From positions 1-41,189 of IMG/VR virus record IMGVR_UViG_3300021478_000065: a DNA stretch of 41,189 nt. One strand, written 5' to 3'. Made by a program: the position numbers and the translations under genes. Of the stretch, positions 1 to 41,146 are shown piece after piece. The notes below the pieces were generated by a model. It was not told the DNA's origin. It saw only the letters and a list, made by a program, of their open reading frames with translations, and searched no databases. This DNA comes from a virus. The stretch's first letter is position 1, and each line of letters opens with the position of its first letter.

Positions 1-397
1 ATTGCGCGGCCCCTCCTTCGAGATTTTGGGCCCTCCCCCCCGGTATGTTCCACGGATGGCCGGCGTAGAGCGGCAATCCCGTCGCGTCGTGACCATGAAC
101 AATCTTATCGATGCGATATGGGAGTCGCCTTGCCTTCTCGGTATGGCTGCGGTTGTCGCACGTCGCACATAGGGTGCGCAGGTTGTTGATATCAAGGGCA
201 CGGTGCGGAGCTACCTTGACGGGCTCTATGTGGTCGACGCGTGCTTGGCCCTTACCACCCACATAGGCTTGGCAACGAACGCAGCGGTAATGGTCGCGGC
301 GTAGGACCATCAAGCGTAAGTCACGCCACGCCTGCTTGTCATAGAACCTTCCCGGACGGGGCATCAAGGAACTACCGCCGAACACGGGATTGCTCAC
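1..397 (-). CDS. HNH endonuclease (runs off the left edge)
   Basis: Likely HNH nicking or cutting endonuclease that assists the terminase in packaging, as HNH genes beside HK97-type terminases do. Reading leftward from a GTG at 397, the protein shows RFYDKQAWRDLR, a CVRC zinc knuckle, the HNH core VDHIEPV followed by DINNLRTLCATCDN, and a second CATC knuckle: the usual C2-H-N-C2 arrangement, although the last core residue is N rather than H. The GTG overlaps the upstream stop as GTGA; an ATG at 364 is an alternative start. The frame is open at position 1. Joined to position 41189 it continues 15 more codons and stops at 41143, overlapping the ParB-like start as ATGA, which gives a 147-residue protein. 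Family call is from visible motifs; the packaging role is inferred from context. Confidence 0.85.
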   Translation of the reverse strand, partial: MSNPVFGGSSLMPRPGRFYDKQAWRDLRLMVLRRDHYRCVRCQAYVGGKGQARVDHIEPVKVAPHRALDINNLRTLCATCDNRSHTEKARRLPYRIDKIVHGHDATGLPLYAGHPWNIPGGRAQNLEGGAAQ

Positions 398-2408: not shown

Positions 2409-2652
2409 GTCAGGCTCCGCACTCGCGAACGAGTTGGATGATCCCATCGCAAAGACGCTTCAGCGCGGGTTCTTGGTCAGGCGGGAATAGTGCGCGCTCT
2501 AGCGGCGGTCGCAGTCCAGTGAGGGAGCCTACGAACTCAGCCACAAGCGCGACGACTGCTGCTTCAAATCTAACCCTGTTCGCGCCCGCTACATCCTCTC
2601 CCGGGCCTGTCTCGCCTGCGTGCCATTCACCAGCCGCGTCATGCCACCCGAG
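2409..2652 (-). repeat. Inverted dispersed duplication, copy 1
   Basis: 244 bases matching 11786-12029 in opposite orientation. By hand alignment there are 21 mismatches and no gaps, about 91% identity. Both copies end a few bases past the stop codon of their gene. Many differences are silent, which suggests selection on the encoded domain. Confidence 0.9.
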
Positions 2653-2694
2653 CTTCGGCGGCCGCTCAATTTTGACAGGAATAGTGCTTTTCAT
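2410..2694 (-). CDS. Unknown protein carrying the duplicated 80-residue domain (copy 1)
   Basis: 94 residues. After 15 leading residues (MKSTIPVKIERPPKL) the rest, from GWHDAAGEWHAGETGPGEDV to the end, is nearly the same as the C-terminal part of the protein at 11597-12028 on the other strand. The shared part has a helical core (FEAAVVALVAEFVGSL, ALKRLCDGIIQLVRECG) and looks like a small folded domain. The ATG at 2694 overlaps the VRR-NUC stop as ATGA. Function is unknown. The duplication at 91% base identity shows that the module was copied recently between the early operons. Confidence 0.75.
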   Translation of the reverse strand: MKSTIPVKIERPPKLGWHDAAGEWHAGETGPGEDVAGANRVRFEAAVVALVAEFVGSLTGLRPPLERALFPPDQEPALKRLCDGIIQLVRECGA

Positions 2695-8206: not shown

Positions 8207-8782
8207 ATGCTTGGAACCAACACCACCACGCCATCGCGGAGAGGGCGCCCGCGCATCAATTTGGAGTCGGCCCGCGATTTTGTGAAGCGGTTACAAGCCG
8301 GCTTTCCAACGGAAACGCCGGAGCAAATAGCAGAGCGGTACGTGTCACACGTCCGCGAAGTGAACGTGTTTGACGACGCGCAACAGGAAATTTATTGCCT
8401 TGACCCGTTGCGGGAATGGATTTTAGCCACCATCGGGGCGAAGTCCCCGACATCAAAGCCCAAGCTGTCACCAGAAGCGGCCGAGCGACGCCTAGCGGCG
8501 CGTGCCAAGGTGTTAAAGACGGTGGGCGAGCGCGTAGAAGAACGGATCGAAAAACTCGCCGAAATCCGGCTGCTTGAATACGCGACGACCTACGGAAAGC
8601 CGCTCGGCCGTTGCACCGGGGCCGAGTGTCGGCGCCTCGGGCGGCATTACGGCGCGTTCTTCACCGAAATTGGCAAACGACTAAAGCCGAGCGAGCATGT
8701 CGAGGAACACATGAGCGAACTCGAATTGCAAGCGATTGCACGGGTTCATTACCTTGTCGGCCCCGACGCCGGGAAACGATGA
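8207..8782 (+). CDS. Unknown early protein with a GRP (AT-hook-like) start
   Basis: 191 residues. The N-terminus SRRGRPRIN is an AT-hook core. After that come helical segments (NLESARDFVKRLQAGFP; a long charged coiled region RLAARAKVLKTVGERVEERIEKLAEIRLLEYA) and a CTGAECRRLGRHYGAFFTEIGKRL segment. No enzyme motif is visible. Lying between the exonuclease and the annealing protein, it may belong to the recombination or replication group. Its own start has no overlap but lies six bases after the exonuclease stop. Confidence 0.65.
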   Translation: MLGTNTTTPSRRGRPRINLESARDFVKRLQAGFPTETPEQIAERYVSHVREVNVFDDAQQEIYCLDPLREWILATIGAKSPTSKPKLSPEAAERRLAARAKVLKTVGERVEERIEKLAEIRLLEYATTYGKPLGRCTGAECRRLGRHYGAFFTEIGKRLKPSEHVEEHMSELELQAIARVHYLVGPDAGKR

Positions 8783-9642
8783 GCAGTCTCGCCGAAATTT
8801 GCGCCGAAGCGGGAGCGCGAGCGCTCGCTCGCCAGGGCGCTCGCCTCGCCGCTGAGACACCGGAGCAGCGGGAGGCGCGTCTTGCCTATTCGCGCGAATA
8901 CGCGCGAACCCATTACTCGTATGTAAAAAAAGGGCGGCCCGTACTGACGCGCGAGGAGAAGCTCGCACGAAAGCGGGCTTATTATGCCGCGAACAGTGAG
9001 CGAATTAGCCAGGCCATGAGCCGCGCCGAACGCGACCGGGCTAACGCCCGAAAGCGCGCCCGCCGAGCGGCGAATCCCGAATTGGTGCGCTCAATTGATA
9101 ACGCTTACGTCGCGGCTAACCGCGAGCGGGTTCGTGCCAGAATGCGCGCATGGCGCGACGCACACCCATATCAATATAAAGGGCCTGCTATTGCTCACAT
9201 TTTGGCATGGCACGCCGACCGGAGGGCTTCGGTGGCCGCGCACCGCGAAGCCGTGGAAGCCGAGCGTCGGGCATGGGAAGCCGCCAATTCCGAGCGCGTC
9301 GAGGAATTGCGCCGGACCCGACAACGCGACCTCATTCGGCAATGGGCGTTAGAGCATCCCGAGAAGACAATGGAATATGTCGCAAAAAGGAAGCGGTATC
9401 TCGCCGATCACCCGGAATTAAGGGCAGAACTAAGGCGGCGACAAAAACAGCGTCTTAAAGAACAGCGCCCCGAAACCTACCGGGCGCGACGCCGGGAATA
9501 TAAGGCGCTCCTCCGCGTGCGCCAAAAGGCGGCGAAGGACTTTCTGCAATCGCTCGGCGTCGAGGTACGCAACGGCGCGTTCGCGCTCGCCTATCTTCGC
9601 GAGGCCGGTTTTCTGGCCGGGGAGGCCGGCGGTAATGGCTAG
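8779..9642 (+). CDS. Highly basic, repetitive helical protein
   Basis: 287 residues from the ATG at 8779, which overlaps the previous stop as ATGA. The protein is built from degenerate helical repeats of about 20 residues with a pattern like R.YYAANSERI, R.RARRAANPELV, AYVAANRERVRARMRAWRDAHP, RRAWEAANSERVEELRR, RYLADHPELRAELRRR. Arginine and alanine dominate, so the protein should be a long, positively charged helical rod. The (A)(N/H)(S/P/R)E(R/L) spacing is seen in phage proteins linked with HNH or structural DNA binding, but there is no nuclease core here. A nucleic-acid-binding role is inferred from charge. Confidence 0.65.
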   Translation: MSSLAEICAEAGARALARQGARLAAETPEQREARLAYSREYARTHYSYVKKGRPVLTREEKLARKRAYYAANSERISQAMSRAERDRANARKRARRAANPELVRSIDNAYVAANRERVRARMRAWRDAHPYQYKGPAIAHILAWHADRRASVAAHREAVEAERRAWEAANSERVEELRRTRQRDLIRQWALEHPEKTMEYVAKRKRYLADHPELRAELRRRQKQRLKEQRPETYRARRREYKALLRVRQKAAKDFLQSLGVEVRNGAFALAYLREAGFLAGEAGGNG

Positions 9643-11433: not shown

Positions 11434-11600
11434 CTGAACGCCCGGATTGGGATGATCAATTCGCCGAGAGCGAGGAGGAGAGAGCCGAGCGGTGGCGTCG
11501 AATTAAAGCGCGCCGGAAGCTGCTGCGCTATTGCGCGTATTGCGATGCCAATACGACCGATCTGCCGACATGTCCGAACTGCGGGCACCAAATGCGATGA
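11430..11600 (+). CDS. Small zinc-ribbon protein
   Basis: 56 residues. An acidic start (DDQFAESEEERAERW) and basic helix (RRIKARRKLLR) lead into a zinc ribbon at the end, CAYCDANTTDLPTCPNCGHQMR, with two C-X2-C pairs. Such a protein probably binds nucleic acid or another protein. Overlaps both neighbours as ATGA. Confidence 0.68.
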   Translation: MTERPDWDDQFAESEEERAERWRRIKARRKLLRYCAYCDANTTDLPTCPNCGHQMR

Positions 11601-12028
11601 CCAACGAATCTTGGCCCGACCCAACGCCCGAGATGCTTGAGACGCCAGAGTTCGAGGCGGTGTGGCAGGCAATCCGGACCTGGGATATCGCCGTGCCAGA
11701 GGCTTATTACGGCTACTGCGGCGCAACCGGCAACCATGTCCGCGCCATTCTCGACGCGCTCGGCCCATCTACGAACCTGGGATTTCTCGGGTGGCACGAC
11801 GCGGCCGGTGAATGGCATAGCGGCGAGACAGGCCCGGGAGAGGATGTAGCGGGCGCGAACAGGGTTAGATTTGAGGCTGCGGTCGTCGCGCTTGTGGCTG
11901 AGTTCATAGGCTCTCTGACTGGACTGCGACCACCGCTAGAGCGCGCGCTATTCCCGCCTGATCAAGAACCCGCGCTGAACCGTCTCTGCGATGGGCTTAT
12001 TCAACTCGTTCGCGAGTGCGGACCCTGA
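11597..12028 (+). CDS. Unknown protein carrying the duplicated domain (copy 2)
   Basis: 143 residues. The first 62 or so (MTNESWPDPTPEMLETPEFEAVWQAIRTWDI to about GPSTNLGF) are unique to this copy and begin with a helix-turn-helix-like stretch. From LGWHDAAGEWHSGE to the end it matches the short protein at 2410-2694, a 244-base inverted duplication. So the same domain is used alone in the leftward operon and fused to a new N-terminus here. Function unknown. Confidence 0.75.
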   Translation: MTNESWPDPTPEMLETPEFEAVWQAIRTWDIAVPEAYYGYCGATGNHVRAILDALGPSTNLGFLGWHDAAGEWHSGETGPGEDVAGANRVRFEAAVVALVAEFIGSLTGLRPPLERALFPPDQEPALNRLCDGLIQLVRECGP

Positions 12029-35719: not shown

Positions 35720-37705
35720 TTACCACGTGACGCCCGTGATCCATGCGACCAAGCCGGTACGCCGCATCATCCAATTCATGGGCAGAATCATGCGAAGCGC
35801 GATCGAATCCGTCTGGAACATCGACCTAACCGGCGCGGCGACCACGTTCGGCGTCCCGGCCGTGCCGATCGGCTGCGGCGCGGTGTCTTCCATGTGCAGC
35901 GTCGCTTGGTCGGAGAGCTCGAACCGCGGATCGTCACCGGCGAGCGAGGCAAAGTCCGCGGCGTCAAGCAGAATGACCATGCCGACCGGCACTGTTGACG
36001 ACGAGATGATGGGATACGTCATCAACCGCCCTTGCTCGACCTCAGCCTTGAACGGGAACACGCCGACACCCGCGGCCGACTGCGTCAAGGTGATGCTGAG
36101 CACCTGTTGCGGGTTCATGATCCACACCGGCATGCGGAGTGAATTCGCCGCCGTGAGCACGTTCAACATCTGCTTGAGGTCGGCAACCAAGGCGGTAAAG
36201 CCGCCGCCGGTTGTCGGCGTCAACCCCGAAACGCCGGCGCGGAGGCCAGCCGGTCGGATCGTCGTCGCCGCGATGTTGTCGATCAGCACCGTATCGAGCG
36301 CCGCGCTCGTGTGCCGGCCCATCATGTCCCGCAGTTGCGTGTCGATGTTGGGCACCGACGACTCGAAAAGCTCGCGTGAGAACGACGAGATCACGGCCAT
36401 CTTTTTGAGACCCATCGCGATCGTCGAGAACGCAGCCTGACGGACCGGGATTGGCGCGCCTTCCGCGACAAACGAGCCCGCCACGGTCGGCGTCGTACCC
36501 TCGACCGGGATCGAGATCGTGCCGTAACGCCCGAGGGTGTAGCGCACGCCGAGGGCCGCGAGCGGCTGATAGATCGATGCGATCAGCAGCGCGGCGACCA
36601 AGTCGGCGAACTGTGTCCGCACGAGCTCTTGCGCCCATGTCGGAACGTTGGTGAAGGCCGGCGCCGTGGCCGCGCGCTGTACCCAATCAAAGCAAGCGCG
36701 GACCCGAGTGTCTTCGCTCCACCCGTTCTCGGCGAGAAACGCTTCCGCCGGGCGACCGGCCTTTTCGACGAAAAGCTTGGCGATGATGGCGCGCATCAAG
36801 ATTTCGCCCGGCTTTTCTTCCTTTTTTGGCATCGCAAAAGGCCGCGGCGGCGTTGGTGCTGCGGGGAGGAAAGGTGCAGGCACCCGCGCCACCGCGACTC
36901 CCGGCGCCCCCACGCCGGTATCCGTAGCCGCGGCACCCACGGCGGCCTCGGATTTCTGCATGGTGTCGATCCGCCGAAGCTCGGCGTCGATCTGGGCGTT
37001 GAGCTCGTCGGCTTTTGCGATGGCGGGCTCGTCGAGCACGTCGCCGACGTCGGTGTAATGCTGTTTGAGGGCGTCGCGGAGCGCGTTGACGTTCGTCTGC
37101 GCGGCGACAATTCGATCGGAGAGGTTCATTGCCTTGTGCTTTCGGATGGAAGAGTCGTGCTCGGCAATCCCGCCGTTGAACCCGCGCCGCGCCGCCTGAT
37201 CCCACACGGCAACCTCGCCGAAGATCAGACTTTGCGTTTCGCGGGAGATCCCGGCCGCTTTCGCGACCTGAAGTGCGTTCGCATTGGCCGGCACCGCGAC
37301 AAGCGAGCACTCGACCAGTTCGGATTTCACGAAGCGTTGCGGTCCGAACCACGGATCATCCGGGTCCAGGGGTTCGGCTTTGATCGGGTGAAACCCGACC
37401 GACACGGCGCGCAGGACGCCGGCATCAACCGCGGCATGAAGCTCGCGCATCCGCTCGCTTGCCGGCGGGATGAGTTCGAGCCGGCCGGTCAGTTGTCCGT
37501 CGCGGACTTGGACGTCGTGCCACTTCCCGATCGGGAAGCCCGGCGAGTGGCCGAACAGCGCGATCGGGTTGCGCCTGAAGTTCGCAAGCTCCCAGCCGTC
37601 CTGCTCGATCACGTCGCCCATGCGGTCGACCGTGCCGTCGCTCATGACGAACTCGCGGGGATCGCCACCCGGCGGCGGCGCGGCGGTTGACTTAATCTTA
37701 ATCAT
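35720..37705 (-). CDS. Fused prohead protease and HK97-type major capsid protein
   Basis: 661 residues from ATG 37705, overlapping the terminase stop as ATGA. Residues 1-190 are the HK97 prohead protease (FVMSDGTVDRMGDVIEQDGWELANFRRNP, then H53 in FGHSPGFPIG, S102 in AVSVGFHP, and E129 in SELVECSLVAVP). Residues 193-255 form the delta/scaffold coil. From about 300 follows the capsid fold with its N-arm and E-loop (PTVAGSFVAEGAPIPVRQAAFSTIAMGLKKMAVISSFSRELFE, DTVLIDNIA, VWIMNPQQVLSITLTQ). In most phages protease and capsid are two genes. Confidence 0.9.
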   Translation of the reverse strand: MIKIKSTAAPPPGGDPREFVMSDGTVDRMGDVIEQDGWELANFRRNPIALFGHSPGFPIGKWHDVQVRDGQLTGRLELIPPASERMRELHAAVDAGVLRAVSVGFHPIKAEPLDPDDPWFGPQRFVKSELVECSLVAVPANANALQVAKAAGISRETQSLIFGEVAVWDQAARRGFNGGIAEHDSSIRKHKAMNLSDRIVAAQTNVNALRDALKQHYTDVGDVLDEPAIAKADELNAQIDAELRRIDTMQKSEAAVGAAATDTGVGAPGVAVARVPAPFLPAAPTPPRPFAMPKKEEKPGEILMRAIIAKLFVEKAGRPAEAFLAENGWSEDTRVRACFDWVQRAATAPAFTNVPTWAQELVRTQFADLVAALLIASIYQPLAALGVRYTLGRYGTISIPVEGTTPTVAGSFVAEGAPIPVRQAAFSTIAMGLKKMAVISSFSRELFESSVPNIDTQLRDMMGRHTSAALDTVLIDNIAATTIRPAGLRAGVSGLTPTTGGGFTALVADLKQMLNVLTAANSLRMPVWIMNPQQVLSITLTQSAAGVGVFPFKAEVEQGRLMTYPIISSSTVPVGMVILLDAADFASLAGDDPRFELSDQATLHMEDTAPQPIGTAGTPNVVAAPVRSMFQTDSIALRMILPMNWMMRRTGLVAWITGVTW

Positions 37706-39219
37706 CCGATCACCGTGCGTATGTCGAGGCTTCGCTCGGCGGCGCTCGTGCCGATGCTGACGGCCATCGCCAAGGCGACCATGCCGTCGATGCGGCCTGA
37801 GGCCTTCGCTTTCTCGAACTTGCGGTTGCCGGCCGGGTCGGTGGCGATCACCGCGTTCGCGGCGCACATGGTCAGCACCGGATGGCCGCCGTGCGCCAGC
37901 CGCGCATTGAGGATTTCGCCCTCAAGCGCTCGCAGCGCCGGGCTCATGTCTTGGTAGCCCTGGCCGAACTCGGTGAAGTGCGCCTCGATAAACGGCTCGG
38001 TAAAGCCGGCTTTGAGCAGCCACGGGCGCAGATGGCGGAAGCCCCAGCGGTCAAAGGCGATCGTCCGGACGTCGTAGCTATCGAAGACGCCGCGGAGATA
38101 TTCAGCGACGTATTCGTAATCAATCGAGCTTCCCGGCGCGGCTTGCAGATAGCCGTCGCGGTGCCACAGATCGTACGGTACGCGGTCGGCGCGCGCTTTC
38201 TGCGCCAGCCCGTCCGCGGGTAGCCAGAAGGTCGGGTGAACCTGCCAGGCTCCGTCGACTTGGCCGACCAGCACCAGCGCCGTGAGGTCGCCAACCGCCG
38301 AGAGATCGAGCCCGCCATAGACCGGCCCGCGATCGATCGGCAGCGCCGGCGCGTTGCACGTCAGCCACAGCGACCGCGAGACAAACGCCGCAGAGCCCTC
38401 GACGCGCCGGTTGAGGATGAGGTTCTCGAACTCGGCCTGTCGCGCCGGCATCCGCCGCGCGTCCTCGGCCATCGCCAGGACTTCGTCGGCATTGAGGAAA
38501 TCCCCGAAGGCCGGGTTCGCGGCCTTGATCGCCGCTCGACTGAAGGCGTCAACGGTCAGTGGTGCGGTGTAGAGCGCGACGACGACGCGCGGATCGTGCG
38601 CCGCCAGGCCGTCGTCGATGAGGATCGATAACAGGTCGGCGTCGGTCGGCGCCTGGGTGCTGATGATGATCGAGAGCGCGTCTTGTTGCGCGCCGGTGGC
38701 GGTTTCCATCGCCTCGTAGAGCGGGCTGCGCGGGCCGCGGACTTGGCCGAGCTCGTCATGGATCACCAGCGCCGGCGACAAGCCATAAGCGGTCTTCGCT
38801 TCGGCCGAGAGCGCCCGGTAGAGCGTGCCGAGCTCGGGGCAAAACAGTTGCTTCGAGGTGTCGCGGATCAAGACCACGCCGTAGAGGTCCGGCGACATGC
38901 GGACAATCTTCGCTGCCAGCGCAAAGAGAATCGCGGCTTGGTCGCGCGACTGCGCGGTGCTGTAGAGCTGCGAGTTCGGCTTGGCCTCGGGCCCGCACAG
39001 ATGCAACAGCAGCAGGAATGCCGAGAGCGCGGTCTTGCCGTTCTTGCGCCCAAACGAAAGGATCGCTCTGCGCGTGCCGGCCGGGTTGTCGTAGATGCGC
39101 CGGATTTCCTTGCGCTGCCACGCGCGCAGCTTCACCGGCTTCCCCACGAGCGCGCCTTCTGGCACTCGGCAGTAATCTTCAATCCAGTTAATGGCGCGGT
39201 TAGCGCGGCCGCGCCGCAA
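37702..39219 (-). CDS. terL: Terminase large subunit (ATPase-nuclease)
   Basis: 505 residues. The ATPase has a Walker A variant (SFGRKNGKT, residues 56-63) and Walker B ALVIHDELG (D155, E156). The nuclease domain begins with YGGLDLSAVGDLTALVLVG (D305, D311) and ends with DGMVALAMA. This matches the phage Terminase_1 family seen with HK97-type capsids. The start is a TTG at 39219, supported by GGAGG eight bases ahead, inside the last codons of the small subunit gene. Packages DNA into the prohead. Confidence 0.95.
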   Translation of the reverse strand: MRRGRANRAINWIEDYCRVPEGALVGKPVKLRAWQRKEIRRIYDNPAGTRRAILSFGRKNGKTALSAFLLLLHLCGPEAKPNSQLYSTAQSRDQAAILFALAAKIVRMSPDLYGVVLIRDTSKQLFCPELGTLYRALSAEAKTAYGLSPALVIHDELGQVRGPRSPLYEAMETATGAQQDALSIIISTQAPTDADLLSILIDDGLAAHDPRVVVALYTAPLTVDAFSRAAIKAANPAFGDFLNADEVLAMAEDARRMPARQAEFENLILNRRVEGSAAFVSRSLWLTCNAPALPIDRGPVYGGLDLSAVGDLTALVLVGQVDGAWQVHPTFWLPADGLAQKARADRVPYDLWHRDGYLQAAPGSSIDYEYVAEYLRGVFDSYDVRTIAFDRWGFRHLRPWLLKAGFTEPFIEAHFTEFGQGYQDMSPALRALEGEILNARLAHGGHPVLTMCAANAVIATDPAGNRKFEKAKASGRIDGMVALAMAVSIGTSAAERSLDIRTVIG

Positions 39220-39222
39220 GCT

Positions 39223-39654
39223 CTACACCTCCCAAGGCTTCGGGCCTCTAGCTGCGTTTCGGCCGGCCGTCGCGGCAGCCATCGGCGTATAGCGCGATTG
39301 ATTGGTTAGCCGCAGCGCCCGCGCCATCCCCGCTGCGGCGCGGGTTTCGGAGTCGCGAATCCGCAGCAAGGATTCGTATCGCTTCACGGCGTCGCCGTTT
39401 TTCAGCCACTCGGGATTGAACTTGTCGATGATCGCCGAGATGTTCTCGGCCGCTTCGCGGTGGCGGCAATAGTCGACCAGCAAGCTGCGCAGCGCCGCGG
39501 TGTTGAAGAATTCGATGGGCTCGCTCGCCGTCGTCTCGCGCCAGATTTCCGCTTGTCGCTCGGTCAAATCGCTCGGCGGCTCGGGGCGACGGCCGAAGAC
39601 GCCCTCGACGACGACCGCTTTTCCAGCCGCCGAAGGTCTGCCGCGCTGTCTCAT
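39223..39654 (-). CDS. terS: Terminase small subunit (P27-like)
   Basis: 143 residues. MRQRGRPSAAGKAVV is the usual basic start, and PEPPSDLTERQAEIWRETTASEPIEFFNTAALRSLLVDYCRHREAAENI is the P27-type core. The C-terminal part is helical. Overlaps the upstream gene as ATGA and its last codons form the ribosome site for the large subunit. Recognises the packaging start. Confidence 0.9.
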   Translation of the reverse strand: MRQRGRPSAAGKAVVVEGVFGRRPEPPSDLTERQAEIWRETTASEPIEFFNTAALRSLLVDYCRHREAAENISAIIDKFNPEWLKNGDAVKRYESLLRIRDSETRAAAGMARALRLTNQSRYTPMAAATAGRNAARGPKPWEV

Positions 39655-40520
39655 GCTGCCACCTTGACGAGCCGCATTCCGTACTCATCGACGCCCGCGG
39701 CGATCTCGATGCCGTCGCGCTTAAGCAGCTTGTTGCGGCGGAAGGGGCGATAGTCGACGTGGTGATGCCAGCGGCCGAACTTCCAGACGACGCGAGCGAC
39801 GTCCGGATGAAGGTTCGCGAGCATCGTCGCTTTCGGGCCTGTGCCTTCTTCGCGATAGAAAGCGTCGGTATTGCCGCCGCCCATCGTCTGCGTGCGCGCT
39901 TTGCCCTGCAAAAATGCGTTGAATTGAACCGTGCACCAGCCGGCTTTGAGCACGCGCAGCGACAAGTCAACGTCTTCGTTGTAGCGGCAGCGCCAGCGGA
40001 ACGGGATGTCATTGCGGATGAGGATGCACGAGTAAAGGCGGGTGTTGATGATGATCGGGTTGAGATGCTGGCGGCGCTTGGCGAAAAAGTGATAGTTCGG
40101 GCCGACCATCGCGACATTCCGATATCTCTGCGCAAAGTCCTCCATGCAGCGAAAGATCGTCCCGTCGGCAACGCGGATTTTCATGTTTCGATTGAGGCGA
40201 AAGAAAGTCGATATATTGTCGTCGACGATCCAGTGAGACGTCGCGCCTTCGCTGACAGCATGATCCCACGCGAAGTTGCGCGCTGGGCCCGATCCTCGGC
40301 TCTGCTCGGGCGTCAACGCCATGCACGCGTCGAATTTTTCGCGGTAGCGCTGCGGCAGGACGAGCAGCTTAGCGTGATCGATATACTGCGCGTAGGCGTC
40401 GATCTCCTGAGCTTCGACGATCACGCGGTATGGCACGCCGATCTCGTCAAGAAAGCGCATCGTGCGCCGGCTCTCCGCGCGCCCCTTCGACGGGATGTAG
40501 ATCGGGTGTTGCGGGTTCAC
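39651..40520 (-). CDS. TET-associated-type glycosyltransferase (GT-A fold), possible DNA base glycosylation
   Basis: 289 residues from GTG 40520 (GTGA overlap with the ParB-like gene). The start PIYIPSKGRAESRRTMRFL, the DXD-type VDDNI (residues 99-103), the RYNEDVDLSLRVLKAGWCTVQFNAF segment (N181-E182-D183) and K207-ARTQTMGGGN are the pattern I associate with phage TET-associated glycosyltransferases, which place sugars on oxidised pyrimidines in DNA. No TET/JBP dioxygenase or other base modifier is visible in the window. It sits between ParB-like and terminase genes, so modified DNA could be what is packaged. The GT-A fold is reliable; the substrate is inferred. Confidence 0.75.
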   Translation of the reverse strand: MNPQHPIYIPSKGRAESRRTMRFLDEIGVPYRVIVEAQEIDAYAQYIDHAKLLVLPQRYREKFDACMALTPEQSRGSGPARNFAWDHAVSEGATSHWIVDDNISTFFRLNRNMKIRVADGTIFRCMEDFAQRYRNVAMVGPNYHFFAKRRQHLNPIIINTRLYSCILIRNDIPFRWRCRYNEDVDLSLRVLKAGWCTVQFNAFLQGKARTQTMGGGNTDAFYREEGTGPKATMLANLHPDVARVVWKFGRWHHHVDYRPFRRNKLLKRDGIEIAAGVDEYGMRLVKVAA

Positions 40521-41146
40521 TCCGCAGCCTCATAGCGCTTGTCGATCGCGACGACGTTCGGCTGCTGCGGATACCAGACAAAGCGCGTCTTCTCGGTCAG
40601 CGGCTGCTTGATCAGCTTGGCGAATTTCTCGACGGCTGCGGCGTCGGGGAAGTGCACGGCGATCGTCTTGAACGCCATCTTCGAATTCTGCTCGAACTCG
40701 GGCATCCCCTGCCACTCGGCGAGGGGGTCGTTTTCTGGCGCCCACAGCTTTTCGATTTCGTCCCAAGAAAAGCCGGCGAACTCCGCATTGAAATCGTCGC
40801 CGAGCGCGTTGAACTCGTCGGCGAGCGTTTCAAAATCCCAACTCGCAAGCTCAGCGAGCCGATTGTCCGCGATCCGATAGGCGCGCTTTTGATCGTCGGT
40901 CCAACCATCGGCGACCATCACCGGAACGTCGCTAAAGCCGAGCTGTCCGGCCGCCAACACGCGGCCATGCCCCGCGATTATCTCGCCAATCTCGTCGACC
41001 AAAACGGGGTTCGTCCAACCCCATTCTTTCATGCTGGCGGCGATTTGATCGACTTGTTCCGGCGAATGCGTGCGCGCGTTTTTTGCGTAGAGAATTAACG
41101 TTTCAAGCGGGTGCCTTTCCACTTTGTCCGCCGGCCAAGTTGTCAT
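40517..41146 (-). CDS. ParB/Srx-type protein, start of the packaging block
   Basis: 209 residues. Residues 12-110 are a ParB-like N-terminal domain: ETLILYAKNARTHSPEQVDQIAASMKEWGWTNPVLV, then DEIGEIIAGHGRVLAA (the G-E-I-I-A-G-H-G-R motif, residues 54-62), then VPVMVADGWTDDQKRAYRIADNRLAE. There is no methyltransferase domain after it. The C-terminus (160-200: KTIAVHFPDAAAVEKFAKLIKQPLTEKTRFVWYPQQ) is a separate alpha-beta domain. Pairs with the glycosyltransferase in a coupled cassette. It may help target or carry out base modification or act as a packaging regulator. Confidence 0.85.
   Translation of the reverse strand: MTTWPADKVERHPLETLILYAKNARTHSPEQVDQIAASMKEWGWTNPVLVDEIGEIIAGHGRVLAAGQLGFSDVPVMVADGWTDDQKRAYRIADNRLAELASWDFETLADEFNALGDDFNAEFAGFSWDEIEKLWAPENDPLAEWQGMPEFEQNSKMAFKTIAVHFPDAAAVEKFAKLIKQPLTEKTRFVWYPQQPNVVAIDKRYEAAE

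Follow-up and report, generated by a model that had tools for sequence, protein, structure and literature searches.

A ParB-like protein encoded shortly before the terminase genes of a virus ends in a cognate adaptor domain for the glycosyltransferase of the TAGT family specified by the next gene, and hundreds of other viruses share this pair. The sequence analysed, hereafter the window, is a linear IMG/VR fragment of 41,189 bases, in which 43 bases separate the right end from the start codon of ParB. A second TAGT clade, common in Escherichia coli prophages, has an unrelated adaptor of its own. We hold it somewhat more probable than its competitors taken together that ParB loads on DNA, that the adaptor docks TAGT, and that TAGT glycosylates DNA near the time of packaging and so protects it from nucleases.

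The order ParB-like gene, TAGT, terS and terL, which a preliminary description of this DNA had reported together with overlaps of four bases (GTGA and ATGA), is exact in the sequence (Table 1). The claimed tight coupling to the terminase is borne out both by these overlaps and by the Pfam and PHROG assignments of the two subunits. A ParB-like gene, a modification-type gene and the terminase genes thereby form one operon, as in the ParB-Tls locus discussed below. Because the contig ends so close to the ParB start, one more gene may have been lost upstream, and a 27-mer search for contigs spanning the right end found none. An HNH endonuclease gene runs off the left end in matching orientation, as if a circular genome had been cut between HNH and ParB, and may be ParB's true upstream neighbor on a circular map; HNH-like open reading frames (ORFs) lie upstream of ParB in two other loci (L005 and L027).

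Table 1. Coordinates of the cassette, its neighbors and selected motifs in the window.
Feature	Coordinates	Strand	Basis
ParB-like ORF (P0001)	40517-41146	-	Pfam ParB_N
ParB/Srx-like N-terminal domain, P0001 residues 1-136; putative DNA-recruitment module	40739-41146	-	Pfam ParB_N
TAP1 adaptor domain, P0001 residues 138-209; motif EWxGMPEF...FKTIAVHF...WYP	40520-40735	-	Standalone, ParB-fused and TAGT-fused homologues
GTGA overlap, ParB-TAP stop / TAGT start	40517-40520	.	Sequence
TAGT-family GT-A glycosyltransferase (P0002, 289 aa)	39651-40520	-	PF20691, E 7e-44
D100-D101 of TAGT (DDN, DxD-like metal/nucleotide-sugar motif)	40218-40223	-	Also in T6 ggt
N181-E182-D183 of TAGT (catalytic-base-like motif)	39972-39980	-	Conservation in clade I
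ATGA overlap, TAGT stop / terS start	39651-39654	.	Sequence
terS, terminase small subunit	39223-39654	-	phrog_12559, E 1.6e-29
terL, terminase large subunit	37702-39219	-	PF20441, PF03354 (ATPase and nuclease domains); phrog_9
HNH endonuclease gene, off left end	2-397	-	PF01844

The phage looks temperate, to judge from its integrase, RecB-like nuclease and replication protein. An almost identical stretch of ~80 amino acids (GWHDAAGEWH...LIQLVRECG) is shared by an ORF at 2410-2694 (-) and one at 11597-12028 (+), which lie at the two ends of the early region of the window, and represents an internal duplication. Another ORF (8611-9642, +) encodes a repetitive protein of 343 amino acids, rich in Arg, Glu and Ala, that has no Pfam or PHROG match.

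Profile searches place the glycosyltransferase P0002 in the TAGT family (PF20691, 150.6 bits against a cut-off of 27.5; also phrog_842). The preliminary description had likened this protein to transferases that act on modified DNA bases and had proposed such a search; family membership is confirmed, while closeness to the characterized T6 enzyme is not. The best annotated relatives are proteins of T4-like Aeromonas phages, at 50-51% identity. P0002 and the T6/T2 enzyme (beta-glucosyl-HMC-alpha-glucosyltransferase, ggt) share PF20691, the GT-A fold, and the WxxDD and ED motifs, but they are related at profile level only: identity is 16%, and the best BLASTP score of 15.8 bits amounts to no match, so that close homology was rejected. 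The T6/T2 enzyme also lacks TAP and ParB, and it lives with the gp42 hydroxymethylase and an alpha-glucosyltransferase, whereas the window has no PF00303 gene. The T6 enzyme has been assigned to GT-A near GT2 (PMC13216743).

The catalytic motifs are intact, with D100, D101 and D183 conserved in all 120 clade-I sequences and E182 in 114. In a structural model of a homologue in which ParB, TAP and TAGT are fused (L138), the glycosyltransferase domain adopts a GT-A fold with pLDDT mostly above 90, while the ParB and TAP portions are of low confidence and the ParB N-terminus falls below 50. The PDB and Foldseek neighbors of this domain are COLGALT1, ThuS, LARGE1 and heparosan synthase, which are too generic to fix the acceptor. 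Sequence searches for solved relatives returned none for TAGT or TAP, and matches of protein G and a ZZ domain to the TAGT profile (E 0.03 or worse) were set aside as chance.

The ParB-like protein P0001 has two parts. Its ParB_N match, just over threshold (27.0 bits at residues 25-86; cut-off 26.3), is the only Pfam match above cut-off, and the window has no C5-methyltransferase, which is as the preliminary description had it (a ParB without a methyltransferase) and sets the protein apart from ParB-methyltransferase fusions. A true partition ParB was considered and rejected: TIGR00180 scores 31 against a cut-off of 58.45 bits, and ParA is absent among the scanned window proteins. Beyond ParB_N, the last 70 residues have no Pfam match. 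The extra C-terminal domain that had been suspected here is real and conserved across homologues as a module of ~70 amino acids, which we call TAP1; its presence had been recognized correctly, but its nature as an adaptor specific to TAGT had been missed. The homologue alignment gives the consensus EWxGMPEFxQ...FRxIxVHF...IWxP, in which W145, P149, E150 and P193 are invariant and M148, F175 and W191 are nearly so. Searches of TAP1 against PDB, Pfam and Foldseek gave no match, nor did a Foldseek search with a model of a standalone TAP (pLDDT 80, pTM 0.47).

With P0002 as query, 352 relatives were confirmed in IMG/VR. Among the best 80 of these 352 loci, a P0001-like sequence lies directly upstream in nearly all, and in several the match is confined to P0001 residues 140-205. 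TAP1 is found behind ParB, as a standalone ORF of ~80 amino acids directly before TAGT (as in L034 and L053, where it follows a DnaB-like helicase gene), or fused to the N-terminus of TAGT (L081, Aeh1, 65, PTm1, Kuja and Vibrio 1.076). Two loci, L138 and L188, encode ParB, TAP and TAGT in a single ORF. Conversely, a scan that used just TAP1 confirmed at least 511 relatives, and in the best 80 of these TAGT is downstream in 78, mostly directly adjoining; in the remaining two the sequence slice stops right after TAP. As hits had to contain the motif [EH]Wx[GD]MPE[FY] and only the 80 best matches were examined, diverged TAPs with other partners could have been missed.

The association extends to cellular genomes. 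A survey of bacterial and archaeal genomes from 84,980 species yielded 37 TAGT loci, 33 of them with TAP; the other four are either cut off upstream (L199 and L200) or partial TAGT matches (L201 and L202). The gene-neighborhood survey that had been proposed for this pair thus places a TAP module beside nearly every TAGT relative with upstream sequence, an arrangement far beyond chance. One clear viral exception is L029 (1315-2712), in which TAGT lacks TAP and a radical-SAM gene is directly upstream.

Across a tree of 120 TAGT sequences, at least 16 transitions occur between the ParB-TAP, TAP-alone and fused states, a figure derived from a short tree search with many weak forks. The cassette also appears to move between phages, since similarity of TAGT and of terminase do not run in parallel: L002 has the closest TAGT (74% identity) with a distant terminase (29%), and in L021 the terminases are 78-85% identical while TAGT is 64% identical. 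The TAP-TAGT genes of Aeh1, 65 and PTm1 lie away from the terminase. In Aeromonas phages Aeh1, 65 and phiAS5, TAGT is 49-51% identical to that of the window and TAP1 is likewise present, fused to its N-terminus; these phages differ in having neither ParB nor a terminase beside the gene. An Aeh1 glucosyl transferase has been listed with the remark ‘presumably modifies DNA, unknown base’ (PMC8056088).

Pfam assignments of 116 proteins encoded downstream of TAP-TAGT include Terminase_6N (19), Terminase_3 (10), TerL_ATPase (10) and GpA (7), as well as four nucleotide-sugar epimerases or dehydratases. Several loci have individual embellishments. In L113 (2428-4424), Glycos_transf_1 is weakly matched downstream of the cassette and a gene for a GDP-mannose dehydratase/epimerase is also present there, possibly a local supply of nucleotide sugar. 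Tandem TAGT paralogues, one often much diverged, occur in L026, L032, L080, L084, L130 and L160 and suggest stepwise building of a di-sugar. A methyltransferase of the FkbM type is fused to ParB-TAP or sits between ParB-TAP and TAGT in L062 (4547-6004), L057 (746-1450), L059 and L063, where it may methylate the transferred sugar. In L151 (6129-6659), possibly from a cyanophage, a heme-oxygenase-like gene is directly 3′ of the TAP-TAGT pair. Some clade-I genes, such as that of L085, are near portal or head genes.

A search of phage records with the ParB domain led to E. coli phages and prophages that carry a second TAGT clade (TAGT-II). Their gene order is ParB, a TAGT of 310 amino acids (PF20691, E 7.6e-35), a short ORF and terS, and relatives are present in Lactobacillus phi jlb1 (ParB, TAGT, terS, terL), Haloarcula virus HHTV-2 and Nocardia NTR1. 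This E. coli (ynaK-type) cassette resembles that of the window in its ParB domain (55% identical, with the match stopping at residue 136), its homologous glycosyltransferase (hhalign of TAGT-I against TAGT-II, 98.7%, E 3e-16) and its genomic slot. It differs in its distinct TAGT clade and in its adaptor, TAP2, a C-terminal domain of ~115 residues that is conserved even on very divergent ParB parts and is not homologous to TAP1 (hhalign, 0.3%).

Each adaptor keeps to its own enzyme. TAGT-II is next in 79 of 80 loci found with TAP2, and TAP2 is upstream in 76 of the 77 loci from a TAGT-II scan that have room for it. Overall, TAP1 accompanied 190 loci of clade I and none of clade II, and TAP2 accompanied 161 loci of clade II and none of clade I, although these counts are not independent because clade II includes many E. 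coli prophages that are almost the same in sequence. At least 80% of the TAP2/TAGT-II pair is present in 885 of 5,426 complete E. coli genomes, or about one in six. In E. coli K-12 MG1655, ynaK (b1365; L211, 4878-5141) is what remains of a ParB-TAP2 gene, a 5′ piece of 86 residues with 98% identity; TAGT is missing from the K-12 Rac prophage, and the intact gene precedes TAGT-II in other E. coli prophages. We considered ydaY of K-12 as a TAGT remnant and rejected it.

The slot between ParB and the terminase is known to house modification genes. PMC6536676 credits to Iyer 2013 a ParB-Tls locus, in which DNA-modification genes lie between a ParB-like gene and terL, and cites the same work for the proposal that ParB steers modification as DNA is packaged. 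The window shares with this locus its gene order, the kind of ParB and the proposed role in packaging-time modification. PMC6536676 treats methyltransferases, whereas adaptors, fusions and missing precursors are added here. Our literature comparison, from which Iyer 2013 itself was absent, found no paper describing TAP1 or TAP2, and what is new is the existence of cognate TAP1 and TAP2 adaptors on ParB.

Relatives of the window's ParB domain are fused to or followed by methyltransferases (m6A/m4C or m5C), Mom or a TET-like gene, and many further ParB matches are annotated as methyltransferases. For example, residues 2-150 of the window protein share 56% identity with the ParB portion of a ParB-m6A methyltransferase fusion before the terminase in L205; such fusions (PMC6536676; L205) occupy the same slot with a methyltransferase in place of TAP and TAGT. 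The ParB of L208 is 44% identical to that of the window and is followed by a C5-methyltransferase gene (PF00145, E 4e-58). In Psychrobacter phage vB_PmaS_Y8A (L204, 3989-5246), a ParB 43% identical to that of the window is encoded immediately before a gene of the Mom family (PF25680, E 1.8e-55), after which come terS and terL. The C-terminus of this ParB gives a marginal match to the TAP1 profile (6 bits) and might be a distant TAP1 relative.

Mycobacterium phage Nigel (L373, 1-1744) has a ParB-like gp1, a TET/JBP-like gp2, a P-loop gene and then the terminase; gp1 aligns with the NTR1 ParB at 54% identity in the N-terminal 143 residues and nowhere further on, and the TET/JBP match of gp2 (E 4e-8, 28 bits) is below the curated cut-off. 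Behind ParB, Pasteurella phage Pmp13 (L207, 2989-4089) encodes a protein that joins an ABC-ATPase to a GNAT acetyltransferase-like domain, and Pseudomonas phage ZY21 (L203, 4690-6528) encodes an ABC ATPase and, two genes on, an unassigned protein of 293 amino acids. These are possible further DNA-modification effectors. A TAP on the ZY21 ParB was suspected and was rejected by the profile.

The company of m6A/m4C and m5C methyltransferases and Mom behind ParBs in the same slot upholds the earlier suggestion that DNA is the likely target, and from this context we infer that DNA is the TAGT substrate. A protein acceptor (ParB/TAP, the terminase, the portal or a host defense factor) or some other molecule, with ParB merely localizing the enzyme, is distinctly unlikely in our estimate. 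It would suit the lack of a DNA precursor pathway described below, the occasional position of clade I beside portal and head genes (L085), and structural neighbors that include protein and peptide glycosyltransferases (COLGALT1, LARGE1 and ThuS). However, these GT-A neighbors are generic, the other effectors in the slot modify DNA, and the sole characterized member of the family acts on a sugar linked to DNA. Moreover, the downstream terminases come from unrelated families, so that no conserved virion protein target is apparent.

If DNA is indeed the substrate, the usual route to a base that can bear a sugar is not visible, because the known precursor families are absent. The preliminary description had seen no TET dioxygenase or hydroxymethylase in the window, and searches with PF12851 and PF00303 and Pfam scans of 24 window proteins agree with it; as controls, PF00303 found T6 gp42 and PF12851 weakly found Nigel gp2. 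What had escaped notice is that other cassettes share this lack. PF00303 is found in none of 27 clade-I IMG/VR records (the window included) and none of 24 clade-II records, and PF12851 in none of 45 TAGT records (the window and 44 others), so that the association with TET that gave TAGT its name was not encountered. QueC (PF06508) was absent from all 34 records searched for it, by which a deazaguanine route was rejected, and the 2OG-Fe oxygenase family PF13640 was likewise absent from all 34. Aeromonas 65 has a single PF00303 gene, and some T4-like carriers have a PF00303 thymidylate synthase. Cassettes of this kind thus generally lack a visible precursor pathway, and the window is no special case.

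A base might nonetheless be hydroxylated or hydroxymethylated before TAGT acts, by an enzyme that is unrecognized in the phage, encoded by a lost gene or supplied by the host. Characterized DNA glycosyltransferases do take hydroxylated or already glycosylated bases (PMC13216743), and the contig stops 43 bases from ParB. A C5-methyltransferase in five of the 27 clade-I records is likewise compatible with a precursor. We nevertheless regard this route as rather improbable: the known families are absent from clade-I and clade-II records, complete phage genomes included, and the neighbors of the cassette include no constant third gene. In addition, E. coli, the host of many clade-II cassettes, is not known to hydroxymethylate its DNA.

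Methyltransferases and Mom, the other occupants of the slot, act on unmodified bases. This background raises a bolder version of the preferred reading, in which a ParB-adaptor-TAGT complex glycosylates a canonical base directly, with one kind of ParB scaffold common to the TAGT clades and a separate docking domain on it for each. By analogy with those enzymes such chemistry is conceivable, although we consider it fairly unlikely.

T6 offers another precedent, since its TAGT is reported to act on a DNA-linked sugar and not on the base (PMC13216743, PMC13390438). By the same logic, the window enzyme would extend a sugar placed on the base by another glycosyltransferase, and the tandem paralogues of the six loci named above could be seen in that light. 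Yet most loci have a single TAGT, and a second glycosyltransferase was found neither in scans of the window nor as a constant neighbor. Furthermore, a 2026 study reported a solitary TAGT, with neither alpha- nor beta-glucosyltransferase as partner, in 288 of 753 glycosyltransferase-bearing phage genomes and called these cases ‘potentially novel’, with no mention of ParB (PMC13216743). We therefore judge sugar extension very improbable.

According to the preferred reading, in which DNA is glycosylated near packaging, the cassette would be a late-operon system of two genes and three modules. The ParB-like domain would bind or load onto phage DNA, and its C-terminal TAP1 would dock the glycosyltransferase, which could then use a nucleotide-sugar to glycosylate an acceptor on the ParB-bound DNA. 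Position in the late operon fits modification at packaging time, and transfer would coincide roughly with the work of the terminase. It counts against this reading that some TAP-TAGT genes (Aeh1, 65 and PTm1) are remote from the terminase, that the searched records hold no known acceptor-making pathway, and that the T6 enzyme, the characterized member of the family, is very distant and glycosylates a sugar instead of a base. Because the TAP1-TAGT pair persists without ParB and can be one polypeptide, it probably represents the core enzyme, with ParB as an interchangeable recruitment part. The acceptor in most carriers is predicted to be a canonical base, or a base altered by an unrecognized enzyme, rather than a 5-hydroxymethyl base made by the phage. 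The likely purpose would be to shield packaged DNA from nuclease defenses.

The adaptors give orphan TAGTs an anatomy, a route to classification and a minimal complex to purify, and they suggest a plug-and-socket arrangement, with several chemistries relying on a single ParB scaffold. With the sister cassette present in so many E. coli genomes, the target of glycosylation is testable in that organism by standard methods. Should direct glycosylation of a canonical base prove true, sugar-bearing DNA would need neither a hydroxymethylase nor TET, and a version of this system would reside in many E. coli prophages.
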